64,000 bases of DNA from Neomegalonema perideroedes DSM 15528 (GTDB lineage Bacteria > Pseudomonadota > Alphaproteobacteria > Rhodobacterales > Rhodobacteraceae). This document shows positions 3,881 to 32,622 of this stretch, piece by piece. How positions within the stretch are numbered: position 1 is the first letter of the stretch; each line of letters starts with the position of its first letter. The notes below the pieces were generated by a model. That model did not search any database. It saw only the letters and a list, made by a program, of their open reading frames with translations, and was not told the origin of the DNA. Position numbers and translations under genes: made by a program. The DNA is taken from NCBI RefSeq assembly GCF_000374145.1, contig NZ_KB893653.1, forward strand, positions 754,510 through 818,509. The letters are read 5' to 3'.

Positions 3881-4354
3881 TCAGGCGGGACATCCGCCGT
3901 CTCGCCGGAAGAGAATCTGAGTTTCAGACAAATTGCGGAGCAGAAGCTCCTGCTCCGCATGGCGGGCGAGGATCTTCAGGATCCGCGAGTCCGCTTCGGC
4001 TTCCGCATCCTGCGGGCGCCGGGGAGAGGCGGTTGCGGCGGCTTCCAGAGCCTTGCAGAACTGCCCGCGCGCCTCCTTCTCGCGCCCCGTCCTCAGCAGC
4101 GCGACGGCGTATTCCGTGTGAAAGCGGACATATTTTCCTTTCGGACCGCCGGTCAGGACCACGAAGCTCACGCCCGGCGCGGAGAAACGGCAAGAGGAGA
4201 GTTTCTTCTCCATATCGCGCGTCTCCTTCTGGCAGGTCCCATTCGCCAGAGCGGTCGCAAAGCCGAAGATCCAGAAGGACAGAAAAAGCATGACGTAGCC
4301 CGCCGTCAGTTCGTCTTTATGCGCGACGAGCCAGACCTTGACCTTCCTGATCAT
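3881..4354 (-). CDS. Hypothetical single-pass membrane protein
   Basis: I do not recognise this 157-residue protein. It has a short basic N-terminus, one hydrophobic helix at about residues 18-37 and a soluble tail. The tail has cysteines near residues 41, 54 and 99 and a helical segment (EYAVALLRTGREKEAR, then FCKALEAAA) that resembles a single TPR-like hairpin. GGATGGAAGC precedes the ATG. It lies 13 bases from the convergent ynfA-type gene and downstream of the binding-protein gene, but a terminator separates the two. Codon use matches its neighbours, so it is likely real. Confidence 0.7.
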   Translation of the reverse strand: MIRKVKVWLVAHKDELTAGYVMLFLSFWIFGFATALANGTCQKETRDMEKKLSSCRFSAPGVSFVVLTGGPKGKYVRFHTEYAVALLRTGREKEARGQFCKALEAAATASPRRPQDAEAEADSRILKILARHAEQELLLRNLSETQILFRRDGGCPA

Positions 4355-4384
4355 GCTTCCATCCTGCGGGGCCTCCGGGACGCG

Positions 4385-4415
4385 AAAAGGCCCGCATGGT
4401 CTCCCGCGCGGGCCT
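4385..4415 (-). terminator. Intrinsic terminator of the binding-protein gene
   Basis: On the minus strand AGGCCCGC, a 12-base loop and GCGGGCCT form a GC-rich stem followed directly by TTTT. It lies just after the stop of the substrate-binding protein gene and should end its transcript before the hypothetical gene at 3881-4354. Confidence 0.75.
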
Positions 4416-4441
4416 CCTGAAGCTCTGTGAAGCGCCGAAGC

Positions 4442-5566
4442 TTATTCGGCGGGCTCAAGCGCGGCCGAGGCCGGAACCGAAGCGCCCTCCACCCATTCAT
4501 AGACCACGAAGGCTGGGGATTTCAGGTCGCCGTTCTCGTCATAGGACAGCGGGCCGAGCACCGTCGGGATCTCCAGCCCGCCCTTGAGCGCTGCGGAGAC
4601 CGCCGCCGCGTCATCGGCTTTTCCGGCCGCCTCGATGCCCGCCTTCAGCACCTGCACCGCGGCGTAGGCGTTGATGGTGAAGGGCTCCACGGCGAAGCCT
4701 TTGGCGGTCAGATCGTCCACGGCTTCTTTGGCGATGGGATTATCGGTGGTGTCGAGGGCGCTGGTGAAGAGCGTGCCTTCGCCCGCTTCGGTGGCGATGG
4801 CCCAATATTCATTGGTCGAGAGGCCTTCGCCGCCGAGGATCCGCGCCTCGACGCCCTGATCCTTCAGCTGACGCGCCAGAAGAGCCGCTTCGGGATGATA
4901 GCCGCCGAAATAAATCGTATCGGCGCCGGCGGCCTTCAGACGGCCGACCAGAACGCTGAAGTCCTTTTCGCCGGGGGTGACGGTCTCGTAAAGAACCTCC
5001 GTGACGCCGCCCTTGTTGACGGCCTCCTTGAAGGCGTCGGCGAGGCCCTTGCCATAGGGCGCCTTGTCATGGATCACGGCGACTTTGGCGTCCGGCAGAT
5101 TGGCCAAAACATGCTCGGCCAACACGAGGGCCTGCTGATCGTCGCGGCCGCAGGTGCGGAAAATGCCGTCGAGCCCGCGCTGGGTCAGGGCGGGGGTGGT
5201 GGCGGTGGGGGTGACCATCAGCACGCCGTTTTCGGCGAGCAGATCCGAGACCGGCATGGCGTTGCCCGAAGTGACCGGGCCGATGACGAATTGCACGCCC
5301 GCGCCCAGCAGATTATTCGCCGCCGAAACCGCCTGACGGGCCTCGCCCGCATCGTCTTCGAGGCGCACGACGAGCTGCTCGCCGAGAACGCCGCCCGCTT
5401 TATTGATGACGTCGACGGCGCTTTCGACGCCCTCTTTCACCTGAATGCCGTAAGCGGCCACGCCGCCGGTGACCGGGGCGATCACGCCGATGACGATTTC
5501 CGCCTGAGCGGCGGAGCCGAAGGCCACGCTGGCCATCAGCGCCAGGGCGGTTGCTCTGAGACGCAT
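4442..5566 (-). CDS. Branched-chain amino-acid ABC transporter substrate-binding protein
   Basis: A periplasmic binding protein of the LivJ/LivK type (Peripla_BP_6). A Sec signal peptide ([22 protein letters not shown]) is followed by [13 protein letters not shown]. The two-lobed fold is marked by [16 protein letters not shown] and [15 protein letters not shown]. The ATG at 5566 is chosen because GGAGG sits 6 bases upstream; an in-frame ATG at 5581 would overlap that site. It is 374 residues, a normal length. No permease or ATPase gene adjoins it, so it is an orphan binding protein serving a transporter elsewhere. The ligand cannot be told from sequence. Confidence 0.88.
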
Positions 5567-5881
5567 GTCTTTCCTCCACATGAAGCCTTTTGGCGGCTTC
5601 TGACATCACGGGGCGGGCGGTCCGAGCTTTCGTCGCGCCTTGGGCTCAAGCCGGAGGCTTAAGACTTTCGGGCGCCCCTTAAGCTCAAGATGTCGGCCGG
5701 ATTCCGGCGAACTGCAAGCCTTTTCCGAAATTTCATATCTCGTAAGGAGGTCCGTCCGGGCGGAGAGGTCGGCGCGCCTCTTCAGACGCGGGCCCTGAGC
5801 TCCGGCCGGGCTTTCGGCGACGGCGCGTCCTCTGGCGGCATGGGCGAGGCCATGGGCCGCCGGAGGGCGCGCGCTGATCCC
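5567..5881. other. Intergenic region upstream of the binding-protein gene
   Basis: These 315 bases hold no convincing gene. A small stem (GAAGCC, 7-base loop, GGCTTC at 5582-5600) falls in the 5' leader of the binding-protein gene. An AT-richer patch around 5715-5745 is the likeliest promoter area for that minus-strand gene, but no good -35/-10 pair was found. No T-tailed terminator was seen after the RTX protease gene. Confidence 0.4.
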
Positions 5882-8401
5882 TCAGAAGAGGAAATCGCTG
5901 TCGCTGAGGGAGGAGACGCCGTCGAGGCGGATGGCGAATTCAGCCGCGGCGTCGGAATCGGTGTTGCCGAAGAGCGTGTTGGTGGCGGCGTCGAAGCGCA
6001 ATTGTCCCGCCGCCGTGAAGCTCGCATTGGCCGCGATCAGGCCGGTGAAGCTCTGGCGTCCGGAGGCGGCGGAATTGGCGTCGAAGCTTGAGAAGTCGAT
6101 CAGGTCTTGTCCGCGCGTGAAGTCGCCGATCACGTCGGCGGTCGCGGTCGTGGCGCCGGTTTCGGAGGCGCTGCGGAAGACGAAGACGTCCGAGCCTGCG
6201 CCGCCATAGAGGACATCCCGGCCTGCGCCGCCTTCAAGGACGTCGTTCCCCCCTTGGCCGTGCAGAGTGTCGTTTCCGGCGCGGCCGAGGATGACGTCGT
6301 CGCCGCCTTCGCCCCAGATGACGTTGGCGCCTGAATCGCCGCGCAGAACGTCGGCGTGCTGCGAGCCTTGCAGATTCTCGATGGAGACGAAGGTGTCTCC
6401 GGCGGCCTCGCCGGTGTTGGCGGCGGGGCTCGCGAGATCCACGGTCAGGCCCGTGGCGGATTCGGCGTAGGAGGCGCGGTCGGTTCCCGCGCCGCCGTCG
6501 AGGAGGTCGGCGCCCGCGCCGCCGCTGAGGATGTCGTTGCCGCCTTGGCCGTAGATCTTATCATTTCCGCCGCGTCCGCGGATGACGTCGTTCCCGCCTT
6601 CGCCCCAGATGACGTTGGCGCCTTCGTCGCCGCGCAGATTATCGGCGTGATGCGAACCCTGCAGATTCTCGATGGAGACATAGGCGTCTCCTTTGGCCTC
6701 GCCGGTGTTGACGCGGGCGTTGGCGAGATCGATGGTCATGCCCGTCGCGGCTTCGGCGTAGGAGGCGCGGTCGGTTCCCGCGCCGCCGTCGAGGAGGTCG
6801 GCGCCGAGCCCGCCGCTGAGAATGTCGTTCCCGCCTTGGCCATACAGCTTGTCGTTTCCGCCGCGTCCGCGGATGACGTCGTTCCCGCCTTCGCCCCAGA
6901 TGACGTTGACGCCCTCGTCGCCGCGCAGGTTGTCGGCCTTTTGCGAACCTTGCAGATTCTCGATGGAGACGAAGGTGTCTCCGGCGGCCTCGCCGGTGTT
7001 GGCGGCGGCGTTGGCGAGATCCACGGTCAGACCCGTGGCGGATTCGGCGTAGGAGGCGCGGTCGGTTCCTTCGCCGCCGTCGAGGAGATCAGCGCCGAGC
7101 CCGCCGCTGAGGATGTCGTTGCCGCTCTGGCCGTAGATCTTATCATTTCCGCCGCGTCCGCGGATGACGTCGCCGCCGACGCCGCCCCAGATCCGGTTCG
7201 CGCCCTCGTCGCCGCGCAGATTGTCGTTGAACCGCGAGCCTTGCAGATCCTCGATGGAGACGAAGCTGTCTCCGGCGGCTTCGCCGGTGTTGAGCGAGGC
7301 GTCGGCGAGATCCACGGTCAGTCCGGCCGCCGCGTCGGCGTAGGAGGCGCGGTCGGTTCCTTCGCCGCCGTCGAGAGAATCCGCGCCGAGGCCGCCGTTC
7401 AGAACGTCGTTGCCGCCGAGGCCTTTCAGAACGTCGTCGCCCGCATTGCCTTTCAGGAGATTGGCGTGCTCGTTGCCGGTGACGCTGTCGTCGTTCGAGC
7501 CGCCGAAGCCGTTCTCGATCACGACGCCATAGGCGATGGTGTAGGCGGTCAGGGCGTCGCCCCAAGCGTCTTCGATGAAGGAGACCCAGCCGCCGCCGCC
7601 GGACTCGACCAGAAGCGAGGCCGCGCGCAGATCGATGACGGTCTTCTTGTCGGTGGAGCTGAAATCGATGACGTCCACGCCGTCGCCGTCCCAGATGGCC
7701 CGGACCTCGCGGCTGAAGCCGTAGGTGTCGTTTCCGGAGTTATAGGAGGCGTTGGCGCCGTAGAGCGCCTGCAGCGCCGCGATGTCCAGCGCCCCGAAGA
7801 GATTGATGTTCAGATCGTCGTAGGTGGGGAAGAACTCAAGCCCCGGCTGTTCGTAGACGTTGTTGTTGAAGCTGACGTAGGACATCCGCGTATAGAGCCG
7901 CGTGCCGAGATTATAATCGCCCGCGTCCGTGGAGCTGGAGACGCCGGGGAGCGTCGTGTCGCCGGAGAAGGGATGCGCGAGGCCGAGGGCGTGCCCCAAC
8001 TCGTGAATCAGCACGAATTGATTGGCGTTGAGCAAGGTGCTGTCGATGACGACGGGCACATGCCAGTAATCCATATAGGGCCTGACGGCGTATCCGGCGG
8101 CGTCGCCGCCCGGCTCGTCGACGCTATAGAGGCTGATCTGCGCGTCGGAGGCGTAGGAGACTTCCGAGAAGGTCAGATTCGTGATGGCGGAGATCTCGGC
8201 GAAGGCCGCCCGCGCCAGAGCCTTCTGGCTCGCGTTCCAAGCGTTGGCCGTGGTCGAGCTGTCGGCGTAAGCGCCGTCGAAATCTCCCTGCGGGGCGAAG
8301 GAGTAGGTGACGTTGCTGCTCGTCCAGTTATAGCCTTGGTTGGTGAGCGCTCCAAGGAGCGGATGATCGTAAGGCGTGATGTTGCTGGCGCCTAAGGACA
8401 T
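5882..8401 (-). CDS. Serralysin-like RTX metalloprotease (M10B)
   Basis: A secreted zinc metalloprotease of 839 residues. [11 protein letters not shown] at 133-143 is the metzincin zinc site, Met173 in RMSY is the Met-turn, and [12 protein letters not shown] near 206-217 is typical of serralysins. From about residue 310 on it is built of GGxGxDxL calcium-binding RTX repeats, including four 97-residue units (336-723). The C-terminus ends in SDSDFLF, an acidic residue plus hydrophobics as in type I secretion signals. There is no N-terminal signal peptide. The ATG at 8401 has GGAG 8 bases upstream. No HlyB/HlyD/TolC genes are in the window, so its exporter must be elsewhere. Confidence 0.9.
6233..7396 (-). 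repeat. Four tandem 291-bp repeats inside the RTX protease gene
   Basis: Units at 7106-7396, 6815-7105, 6524-6814 and 6233-6523 each encode 97 residues: GGxGADxLDGG, TDRASYA, a TVDLA strand, [18 protein letters not shown] and a nonapeptide run ending GGNDILS. They are close at DNA level, with long identical blocks, so copy number could change by recombination. The first unit is the most divergent (NRIWGGVGG in place of NVIWGEGGN). Confidence 0.92.
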
Positions 8402-26320: not shown

Positions 26321-26349
26321 TTGACCCCTTGTTTCGCCGCATCCATTCT
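26321..26349 (+). promoter_or_regulatory. Promoter of the exported hypothetical gene at 26404
   Basis: CTTGACC, then after 14 bases ATCCATTC (equivalently TTGACC-N17-CATTCT), followed by TCAAC. The same arrangement, including the 27-base distance from TTGACC to the end of CTCAAC, lies in front of the truncated paralog at 31168-31359. It resembles the heat-shock-type promoter before hpf at 58195. Confidence 0.5.
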
Positions 26350-26403
26350 CAACTTAAGATGCGTTTCCTGAATTCATGACCGGGAAAATCGAGAGGGGCG
26401 GAT

Positions 26404-26892
26404 GTGACGCAACCATTATTCATTCGCCGCGCATGCTTCCGTTTCGCCGCGCTTTTGCTGGCTTCGGGCTGCGCCGCGACCTCCGTTCAGGCTCAAGAGG
26501 GCCTGATCCAGAAATTCGAGGCGATGAACCGGCGGATCGCCGAGCTAGAGGCGAAACAGGCGCAGGAGGCTCAGATCTCCGCGCAGAGGATCGGCCATTT
26601 GGAGGAGCAACTCGCGGCGGCGCAGAATAGCTTGGGGCGCCTGAAGATCGTGCATCAGACGGGCTGGTTGGCTCCCCAACGGCTGCCTGGCCGACTGCAT
26701 AATCTTAGCCAGCCTGTCGACAGCACGTTTTGTTATCTCACAGGCGTCGTCGGCGAATTCGCAGGCTTCGCCGAATTAGCCGAGATTCTCGCGAAGGACG
26801 GCCTGTGGCATGTCCGTGTCTCCTCGCATAGGCCTTACGTGCAGTTCAAGGTCTCCTGCGTGGGGCTGCCGGTTCAGGATCCCTCGGGTTGA
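26404..26892 (+). CDS. Exported hypothetical protein with coiled coil and C-terminal Cys pair
   Basis: A 162-residue protein of unknown function. Residues 1-30 form a signal peptide (FAALLLASGCAATSVQA); the ASGC could also act as a lipobox. A heptad-like helix runs from about 33 to 80 (EGLIQKFEAMNRRIAELEAKQ and on). The last 60 residues look like a small beta domain with Cys110 and Cys152, a possible disulfide. It starts at a GTG with GAGGGGCG just upstream. Its first 50 codons are nearly identical in DNA to the truncated gene at 31168-31359, and the promoters match too. Confidence 0.75.
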   Translation: MTQPLFIRRACFRFAALLLASGCAATSVQAQEGLIQKFEAMNRRIAELEAKQAQEAQISAQRIGHLEEQLAAAQNSLGRLKIVHQTGWLAPQRLPGRLHNLSQPVDSTFCYLTGVVGEFAGFAELAEILAKDGLWHVRVSSHRPYVQFKVSCVGLPVQDPSG

Positions 26893-28313: not shown

Positions 28314-28394
28314 GTCTCATGCGCCTTCGGCGCAGGGCCAGTCTCATGCGCCTTCGGCGCAGGGCCGATCTCATGCGCCTTCGGCGCAGGGCTC
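28314..28394. repeat. Three tandem 27-bp hairpin repeats after trpE
   Basis: Units at 28314-28340, 28341-28367 and 28368-28394 share TCTCATGCGCCTTCGGCGC plus AGGGC; only the last few bases differ. Each contains the stem TGCGCC-TTC-GGCGCA. The third unit overlaps the trpE stop codon. As RNA the minus strand would carry three strong hairpins right after trpE, perhaps ending or stabilising its transcript. Confidence 0.8.
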
Positions 28395-31171: not shown

Positions 31172-31359
31172 GCGAGGTCGAGGCTCAGCGGGCGGGCCGC
31201 ATCAATGGGGTCGGCGATCCGCTGGTTCATGGCTTCAAGCTGCTGGATCAGGCCCTCCTGAGCCTGAACGGAGGTCGCGGCGCAGGCCGAAGCCAGCAGA
31301 AGCGCGCAGGGCGCCGCGAAACGGGCGGCCGCGCGTCGGATGACGAGGGGGTGGTCCAT
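31168..31359 (-). CDS. Truncated paralog of the exported protein at 26404
   Basis: A 63-residue frame whose first 50 residues match the gene at 26404: PLVIRRAAARFA, then LLASACAATSVQAQEGLIQ and LEAMNQRIAD. After that it diverges and stops, so the coiled coil and the C-terminal Cys-containing domain are missing. A good ribosome site (GGGATCGGAG) precedes the ATG. DNA identity is high across the signal peptide. It is either a decaying duplicate or a functional exported mini-protein; the kept promoter and start site leave the second option open. The stop shares TTAG with the EEP gene. Confidence 0.6.
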   Translation of the reverse strand: MDHPLVIRRAAARFAAPCALLLASACAATSVQAQEGLIQQLEAMNQRIADPIDAARPLSLDLA

Positions 31360-31415
31360 GCTCCGATCCCTTCGATTTTCACGCCATGTCTTTGCGAGTT
31401 ATATCCTCAGGGTTG

Positions 31416-31444
31416 AGAGTGCAGGAGGCGGTCCGGGGGGTCAA
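31416..31444 (-). promoter_or_regulatory. Promoter of the truncated paralog
   Basis: On the minus strand TTGACC and CACTCT are 17 bases apart, then CAAC. It aligns without gaps with the promoter at 26321-26349. The -35 box overlaps the stop codon of the upstream lipoprotein hydrolase gene. Confidence 0.5.
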
Positions 31445-32622
31445 TAGGCCTCCGAAGAGGATGCGCCTCCCAGAGGAGAGAGAAGCGCCGCCGGAGCGCT
31501 GAGCAGCAGATTCGCCGCGCCGCCCACCGTCCGGGCCGCGCCATGCACGAAGACGGTGAATTGATCGTCCAGAGGAATCGAATCCGAAGCCACCCGGATC
31601 TCGCCCGAATCGATCAGCCCGCCGAGAAGCCGCACGATCTCGGGGCTTTGCGCGAAAACGCCGTGGCTCAGGCGGTCGTCGCTCTTCATGCCGGTCAGAT
31701 CCACCACCGTCAGATTGGTCATGCGCAGGCCGGTCTTATAGGGCTCGGCGTTGGGGTCGATCATGCCGAGGCGGTCCACCCCGCCGCCGATCCGCTGCGA
31801 GAGCGCCAGAGCCCGGTCGTCGCGCGAGACGAAGACCACGATGTTCGGCGGCGTCTCGCCCAATTCGAGGAATTGCCCCGCGAAGACGTCCACGTCCAGA
31901 TCCGGCGCCGCGAGGGCCACGTCGCGGATTTTGGGATCGACGCGCCCGTCGCGGATCGCCATCTGGCGCAGAGACTCCATCGCCAGCCATGCGCCCATCG
32001 AATGGGCCACCACCGAGATCTCGCGGATCTCCGGCAAAGCGGCCAATCGGCGGAGGATCTCCTCCAGCGCCTCGCGCGAGAAGGTCGCGCTGTCGCGGTC
32101 GTAGACGTAATCCAGCGCCGAGCCGCGCGAGGGCCAGGAGAAGAGAAGCGGCGTCGCGGCCATGCGCGAATCCCAGGCGACCTGGGCGTAACGATAGACC
32201 GAGGCCTCGAAATTCGAATTATAGCCATGGACGAAGACCGCCACCCGGCCGCTCGGGGGGGGATGGCCGCGCGCCCAGTCGCCGAGCTGGTCGGGGGGCA
32301 GGCGGCGGGCCTCCAGCACGGCGAAATCCGTCGCGGGATTCGGCGGCAGGCGCTCGGGCCATTGCACCGCGCCGGGCTTGCGCGCCTCAGGCGGAGGAAT
32401 CGAGACGCTCAGGGTGATCAGCGAGGGCTCGAAGCTGCGGCCTCCGGTGAACATCTCGCCCGGATCGGTCGAGGCCGCGCGGGTGGTGGCCACGAGCATC
32501 TCCACGCGCCCCGCGCCCGGAGGCGGCGGCTCGGCGATGGGCGCCAGCACGTTGACCGGGCGCGTCGCGCAGCCTCCGAGCAGGGCGACGCAGAACAAAC
32601 AGGCGGAGATCAGGCGCGTCAT
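31441..32622 (-). CDS. DUF900-family alpha/beta hydrolase lipoprotein
   Basis: A 393-residue lipoprotein: the signal peptide ends in the lipobox LLGGC at residues 14-18. The DUF900 alpha/beta hydrolase domain shows VAVFVHGYNSNFEASVYRYAQ cut near residue 130 (oxyanion side), the nucleophile in VVAHSMGAWL, and a likely catalytic His in DDRLSHGVF. The C-terminus is hydrophobic (GGAANLLLSAPAALLSPLGG). Substrate unknown; an envelope-located esterase is likely. It lies alone on the minus strand, 85 bases from the DUF4261 gene. Confidence 0.85.
   Translation of the reverse strand: MTRLISACLFCVALLGGCATRPVNVLAPIAEPPPPGAGRVEMLVATTRAASTDPGEMFTGGRSFEPSLITLSVSIPPPEARKPGAVQWPERLPPNPATDFAVLEARRLPPDQLGDWARGHPPPSGRVAVFVHGYNSNFEASVYRYAQVAWDSRMAATPLLFSWPSRGSALDYVYDRDSATFSREALEEILRRLAALPEIREISVVAHSMGAWLAMESLRQMAIRDGRVDPKIRDVALAAPDLDVDVFAGQFLELGETPPNIVVFVSRDDRALALSQRIGGGVDRLGMIDPNAEPYKTGLRMTNLTVVDLTGMKSDDRLSHGVFAQSPEIVRLLGGLIDSGEIRVASDSIPLDDQFTVFVHGAARTVGGAANLLLSAPAALLSPLGGASSSEAY

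Follow-up and report, generated by a model that had tools for sequence, protein, structure and literature searches.

An exported coiled-coil protein gene of Neomegalonema perideroedes, its headless partial copy and the leader family to which both belong

Two related genes in one window

The DNA considered here is a window of 64,000 nt from Neomegalonema perideroedes DSM 15528 (assembly GCF_000374145.1, contig NZ_KB893653.1, positions 754,510-818,509 of the forward strand), and positions are window positions throughout, except where a contig is named (Table 1). The window carries the gene of an exported protein, P1, at whose start region an overlapping ATG at 26402 enters a TGA at once, and, 4.3 kb away in inverted orientation, a headless partial copy of this gene, P2, the stop codon of which overlaps that of a convergent Exo_endo_phos gene. 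The initial annotation had described the two as nearly identical in DNA over the signal peptide and the beginning of the coiled coil. This is correct for a 96-bp tract that covers the end of the signal peptide and the first turns of the coil (86/96 bases identical, 90%), but not for the first 15 codons, where 28 of 45 bases agree and which are adjoined by an in-frame length difference of 9 bp. After codon 47 or so, likeness is gone (10/39, chance level), and the break is abrupt and lies inside the coil. Among the differences in the 46 common codons, silent ones are over-represented (dN/dS about 0.31), although the numbers are small. P2, having no head, does not amount to a second functional copy of the P1 protein and is probably a degenerate or headless copy that is either decaying or encodes a headless peptide. 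When the whole genome (3.41 Mb, 17 contigs) was searched at the DNA level, P1 matched at two places alone, namely P1 itself and P2; the copy count proposed in the initial annotation thus yields no further leader copy in DNA, and six more paralogs by protein profile (see below).

Table 1. Features of the P1 and P2 loci and other members of the leader family.
Feature	Location	Strand	Description
P1 promoter-like block	26321-26353	+	TTGACC-17-CATTCT, then CAAC
P1	26404-26892	+	Exported protein, 162 aa, GTG start, real open frame
P1 signal peptide	26404-26493	+	SPase I site VQA/QEG (slash, cleavage) probable; read by eye from sequence
96-bp tract, P1 copy	26448-26543	+	Matches the P2 copy
P1 coiled-coil stalk	26485-26661	+	Residues 28-86; AlphaFold2 helix, heptads
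P1 head	26704-26889	+	C110 (26731-26733) and C152 (26857-26859), likely disulfide
Segment missing in G101 at P1	26267-26880		Flanking genes intact, collinear
P2	31168-31359	-	63 aa, real open frame: leader and first part of coil, then 13 unrelated codons
Segment replaced in G101	31172-31479		About 80 unrelated bp there; holds P2, P2 promoter, last DUF900 codons
96-bp tract, P2 copy	31211-31306	-	Inverted match to P1 26448-26543
P2 promoter-like block	31412-31444	-	TTGACC-17-CACTCT, then CAAC; -35 hexamer overlaps DUF900 gene stop codon
Leader gene, this genome	C1:1134542		H-lectin head
Leader genes, this genome	C1:1135373, C1:1136109		Tandem, unnamed ~130-aa head
Leader gene, this genome	C2:650821		H-lectin head
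Leader gene, this genome	C12:17575		Cys-rich head
Leader gene, this genome	C1:975317		Short Cys head
Leader genes, G101	C46, C7:133190		H-lectin heads
Leader gene, G101	C7:133864		Unnamed head
Leader gene, G101	C31		Short Cys head

The P1 stalk is predicted by AlphaFold2 as a confident long helix (block pLDDT 86-93 over residues 31-70), and 67% of its heptad a/d positions are hydrophobic. The head is mostly modeled with pLDDT below 50 and belongs to no Pfam, NCBIfam or PHROG family; P1 gives no match to H_lectin (PF09458; Pfam curated cut-off 24 bits) and is not classed as an H-type lectin. A sequence search of the PDB with P1 returned generic coiled-coil matches only, all above E 0.4, tblastn against phages and plasmids returned nothing, and a class-wide profile search gave matches at chance level only. 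The sole convincing, albeit weak, match of the head among 395 genomes of the order lies in Litoreibacter arenae (NZ_KE557311), at the C-terminus of a secreted trypsin-like protease, and this tail leads by tblastn to a serine protease encoded on a plasmid of Paracoccus sp. MC1862 (WP_182792911.1, 3e-11). A profile built from the Litoreibacter and Paracoccus tails alone, the former having initially been retrieved with P1 as query, matches P1 at E = 3.9e-4 in a partial alignment over profile positions 12-40, and the score exceeds that of the best among 20,000 shuffles by 8 bits. P1 and the protease tails share FC[YF]L....G.F.......EI....G followed by a second cysteine, P1 keeping both cysteines and the pattern FCxL....G.F..EI. 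They differ in that the domain follows a protease in Litoreibacter and Paracoccus and a coiled coil in P1, and in that the stretch from mid-domain to the second cysteine is shorter in P1. The relationship lies at the limit of detection. The disulfide suspected by the initial annotation in the C-terminal domain gains support, since C110 and C152 are conserved in these remote relatives, and P1 is probably an exported, oligomeric coiled-coil stalk presenting a disulfide-stabilized binding head. The other weak order-level matches of the head (L022-L026, L028-L030) were discarded, as they lack the cysteine pattern or lie in broken or overlapping frames, so that the Litoreibacter match (L027) alone was kept; two IMG/VR matches (L031, L032) fall within a methyltransferase-like gene but not in its reading frame. 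Next to the protease with the P1-type tail, the Paracoccus plasmid carries another trypsin-like protease gene and genes resembling those of phage tails (baseplate J, phage tail protein, PASTA).

Upstream sequences and the corresponding sites in a sister species

The upstream regions of the two genes had been said to align without gaps. This applies to a block consisting of TTGACC, a 17-base spacer, CAYTCT and CAAC, outside of which the upstream DNA is about 50-60% similar with short gaps. In the gapless comparison of the block, 15 of 16 element positions are identical vs. 9 of 17 in the spacer (Fisher p = 0.017), and the pattern TTGACCN{15,25}CAYTCTCAAC occurs twice in the 3.41-Mb genome, at P1 and P2, and not at all in a reversed control. 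The alignment of 120 bp upstream of P1 and P2 is equalled or beaten by 2 of 4960 random window pairs. Beyond the -35 hexamer no significant likeness between P1 and P2 was found, 13% of random pairs scoring as high, and a duplication extending further, into the DUF900 gene, is unsupported. Since homology runs from the -35-like hexamer into the coil, the duplicated block extends from about this hexamer into the coil, and the initial claim that the start of an exported coil was duplicated together with promoter-like sequence stands. The -35 element TTGACC has 5/6 of the sigma-70 consensus, the -10 element CA[TC]TCT is poor, and a consensus scan did not report the block; the element common to both genes may be an ordinary promoter of the sigma-70 type, its -10 being weak. 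Co-regulation of P1 and P2 from this block, which the initial annotation had proposed in having both copies answer one signal, would be plausible. The block is absent from all ten other leader genes examined in both species.

The genome of a sister species, G101, was used for comparison; it belongs to the same genus, and its DNA flanking the P1 and P2 sites is 86-90% identical. Genes for TetR, DUF3422, trpE, Exo_endo_phos and DUF900 occur there in the same order and orientation, and neither P1 nor P2 is present. An inversion of the 4.3 kb that separate the two copies was considered and rejected, as this DNA is collinear with G101. Inspection by eye of the P1 and P2 junctions against the empty sites of G101 revealed no target-site duplication or terminal repeats, and no transposase was recognized among the main ORFs between or beside P1 and P2. 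The end of the DUF900 hydrolase gene (31441-31479) reads SPLGGASSSEAY here and GGQISAP in G101, the two being wholly different, as if the tail had been replaced when the P2 segment came or went. The leaders of P1 and P2 have a pS of 0.34 over 46 codons, vs. 0.19-0.25 for neighboring orthologs, a divergence that allows, and does not prove, a duplication predating the species split. With two genomes compared, the empty sites may reflect gain in the N. perideroedes lineage or loss in the G101 lineage. We also observed that the DNA between DUF3422 and trpE (28314-28392) contains a 27-bp GC-rich unit, GTCTCATGCGCCTTCGGCGCAGGGCCA, that is repeated almost perfectly in about three tandem copies.

A common leader followed by differing heads

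A leader profile of five rows (P1, P2, the C2 and C12 genes and C46 of G101) found C1:1134542, C1:1135373, C1:1136109, C1:975317 and the C7 and C31 genes of G101, none of which are rows of it. The best of these new genes has E = 1.6e-13 and the others are weaker; C1:975317, at only 0.29, was included on the strength of its reading frame and its counterpart in a syntenic place. A later profile of 12 rows, which includes the family members themselves, recovers eight genes in this genome, P1 and P2 among them, and four genuine ones in G101 (E 1e-13 to 1e-22; 3.6e-18 for P1 and 9.5e-17 for P2, both being rows of the model). In 395 genomes of the family from other genera, the 12-row profile has no match at E <= 1e-4, and in the searches made the leader-coil family thus appears limited to one genus. 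No paper on it was found in the literature searched. Leader matches on C5 and C34 of G101 were rejected, as their frames are not exported proteins and C34, the single additional G101 match of the 12-row profile, has no plausible gene.

The members have in common a signal peptide and a coil with the motif AQxxGLIQRLxxLE, visible in the alignment, after which the C-terminal domains differ; P1 and P2 share these features, the headless P2 by its leader alone. As one leader precedes unrelated heads, we consider it a module. The single duplicated gene envisaged initially is therefore too small a picture, P1 and P2 being part of a genus-restricted family of leader plus variable head. H_lectin scores above the Pfam cut-off in four members (C1:1134542, C2:650821 and the C7 and C46 genes of G101), and the best solved relatives of the lectin-headed paralogs are Helix agglutinins (Helix pomatia agglutinin) and discoidins. 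Syntenic pairs are C2/C46, C1:1134542-1136109/C7 and C1:975317/C31, the two genes with short Cys heads being the most divergent of the family. The C1 cluster (positions 4492-6706 of locus L050, C1:1130000-1142000) consists of three tandem leader genes, one with an H-lectin and two with unnamed heads; it directly follows a peptide ABC transporter operon and is less conserved between the species than the flanking genes. The C12 leader gene (about positions 4253-8148 of locus L018) lies beside a frame of ~1000 aa, and C12 and its upstream DNA are missing at the matching place of G101.

The C2/C46 pair illustrates how the heads diverge behind the leader. Up to codon 60 the DNA of the pair has an identity of 0.80-0.95, which falls to 0.50-0.69 across the head and ~100 bp beyond it and is about 0.8 thereafter. 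The 120 bp directly upstream of the start codon are poorly conserved as well (0.62-0.63). Four-fold sites differ at 5/31 positions in the leader vs. 12/23 in the head (p = 0.007; background in the DUF3422 gene, 59/266), and the silent-site contrast has the same direction in three other pairs, where it is not significant (p = 0.26-0.38). For C2/C46, head recombination or leader homogenization would explain these silent differences better than protein-level selection alone. P2, which is cut off inside the coil, breaks in a corresponding region of the protein.

A proposed set of stalk genes with variable binding heads, and alternative readings

We favor, with a probability of roughly 0.55, the reading that P1 is one of at least eight exported stalk genes with variable binding heads that evolve by copying, loss and head exchange or divergence, P2 being a headless duplicate. 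These genes would encode small Sec-exported proteins made of a signal peptide and a short stalk starting AQ(E/D)..GLIQRLxxLE, each, except for P2, ending in one of several unrelated head domains. The coil would most likely oligomerize the chains, and the P1 head of ~60 residues, held by a C110-C152 disulfide as its conserved cysteines suggest, may bind a glycan or another surface ligand multivalently. In two paralogs here and two in G101 the head is, by profile, an H-type lectin domain. The family would have evolved through gene copying and loss, with head exchange or fast divergence and a conserved leader; P1 and P2 would descend from a duplication that included promoter-like sequence, P2 having lost, or never obtained, a head. 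Rather than standing for an isolated duplication, the two genes probably belong to a rapidly changing set of binding proteins that are secreted or displayed at the surface. A more far-reaching version, which we regard as quite unlikely, is that the genus keeps dispersed exported stalk genes and actively swaps the heads that follow their constant leader. Recombination where coil and head meet would then diversify a repertoire of adhesins or recognition proteins, and P2 would be a headless leader that accepts or donates.

It has to be considered that likeness among such proteins can arise from the composition of signal peptides and coils, and that coiled coils easily give spurious matches. P1 could then be an orphan exported protein that underwent lineage-specific duplication and decay, P2 being a pseudogene and the family likeness generic composition; P2 is indeed headless and adjoins the stop codon of its neighbor, and both sites are empty in G101. 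The GLIQRLxxLE block and its absence from other genera speak against composition. The five-row profile finds more genes, with E down to 1e-13, that have the same architecture and AQ..GLIQRL block and include the tandem cluster with lectin and non-lectin heads, and the 395 genomes of other genera, which have coiled-coil proteins of their own, give no match to the 12-row profile; we consider decay of an orphan unlikely. The lipobox-like sequences of P1 (LASGC) and P2 (LASAC), loose as they are, and the helical coil after the cysteine would fit outer-membrane lipoproteins acting as Lpp-like structural spacers of the envelope or cell wall instead of binders. Yet this cysteine is found in P1 and P2 only and is not kept across the leader family, the other paralogs retaining the SPase I motif A-x-A/Q directly before [ED]..GL, to which P1 and P2 are similar (VQA/Q), and P1 has a C-terminal domain with two conserved cysteines, all of which makes a lipoprotein improbable.

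The two genes might also form a two-component pair, in which the headless P2 peptide (about 30 aa of the common coil when mature) would be co-expressed from a promoter of the same type and co-assemble with P1, capping or regulating its oligomers. The P2 frame is kept across the 9-bp length difference, the common codons differ mostly silently, and the promoter elements are better conserved than the spacer; however, about 20 coil residues are left in P2, which is short for stable assembly, its tail is unconserved, it is absent in G101, and the numbers are small, so that we rate such a pair as decidedly improbable.

Among known systems, H-type lectins (Helix pomatia agglutinin, the C-terminal domain of discoidin) are related through the domain that follows leader and coil in four paralogs, although the P1 head is unmatched and the leader and coil of the bacterial proteins are absent from the snail agglutinins. 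The receptor-binding fibers of tailocins and phages, such as those of R pyocin (PMC6363177), carry lectin-fold heads on trimeric stalks, and the leader family would be alike in its putatively oligomeric stalk and variable, often lectin-type head; in contrast, no phage or tailocin genes lie near P1, P1 has a signal peptide, and there is no convincing PHROG family. BTH_II1638 of Burkholderia thailandensis, a protein with an H-type lectin domain that two papers count among regulated genes (PMC12322963, PMC3966863), resembles the leader family in the name of its lectin domain only.

If our reading is correct, an alphaproteobacterial genus would join a constant module for export and oligomerization to interchangeable heads, including H-lectins of animal type. 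An uncharacterized two-cysteine domain of secreted proteases would thereby be tied to a probable binding role, and the leader family would offer a tractable set for head swapping by recombination at the coil boundary.
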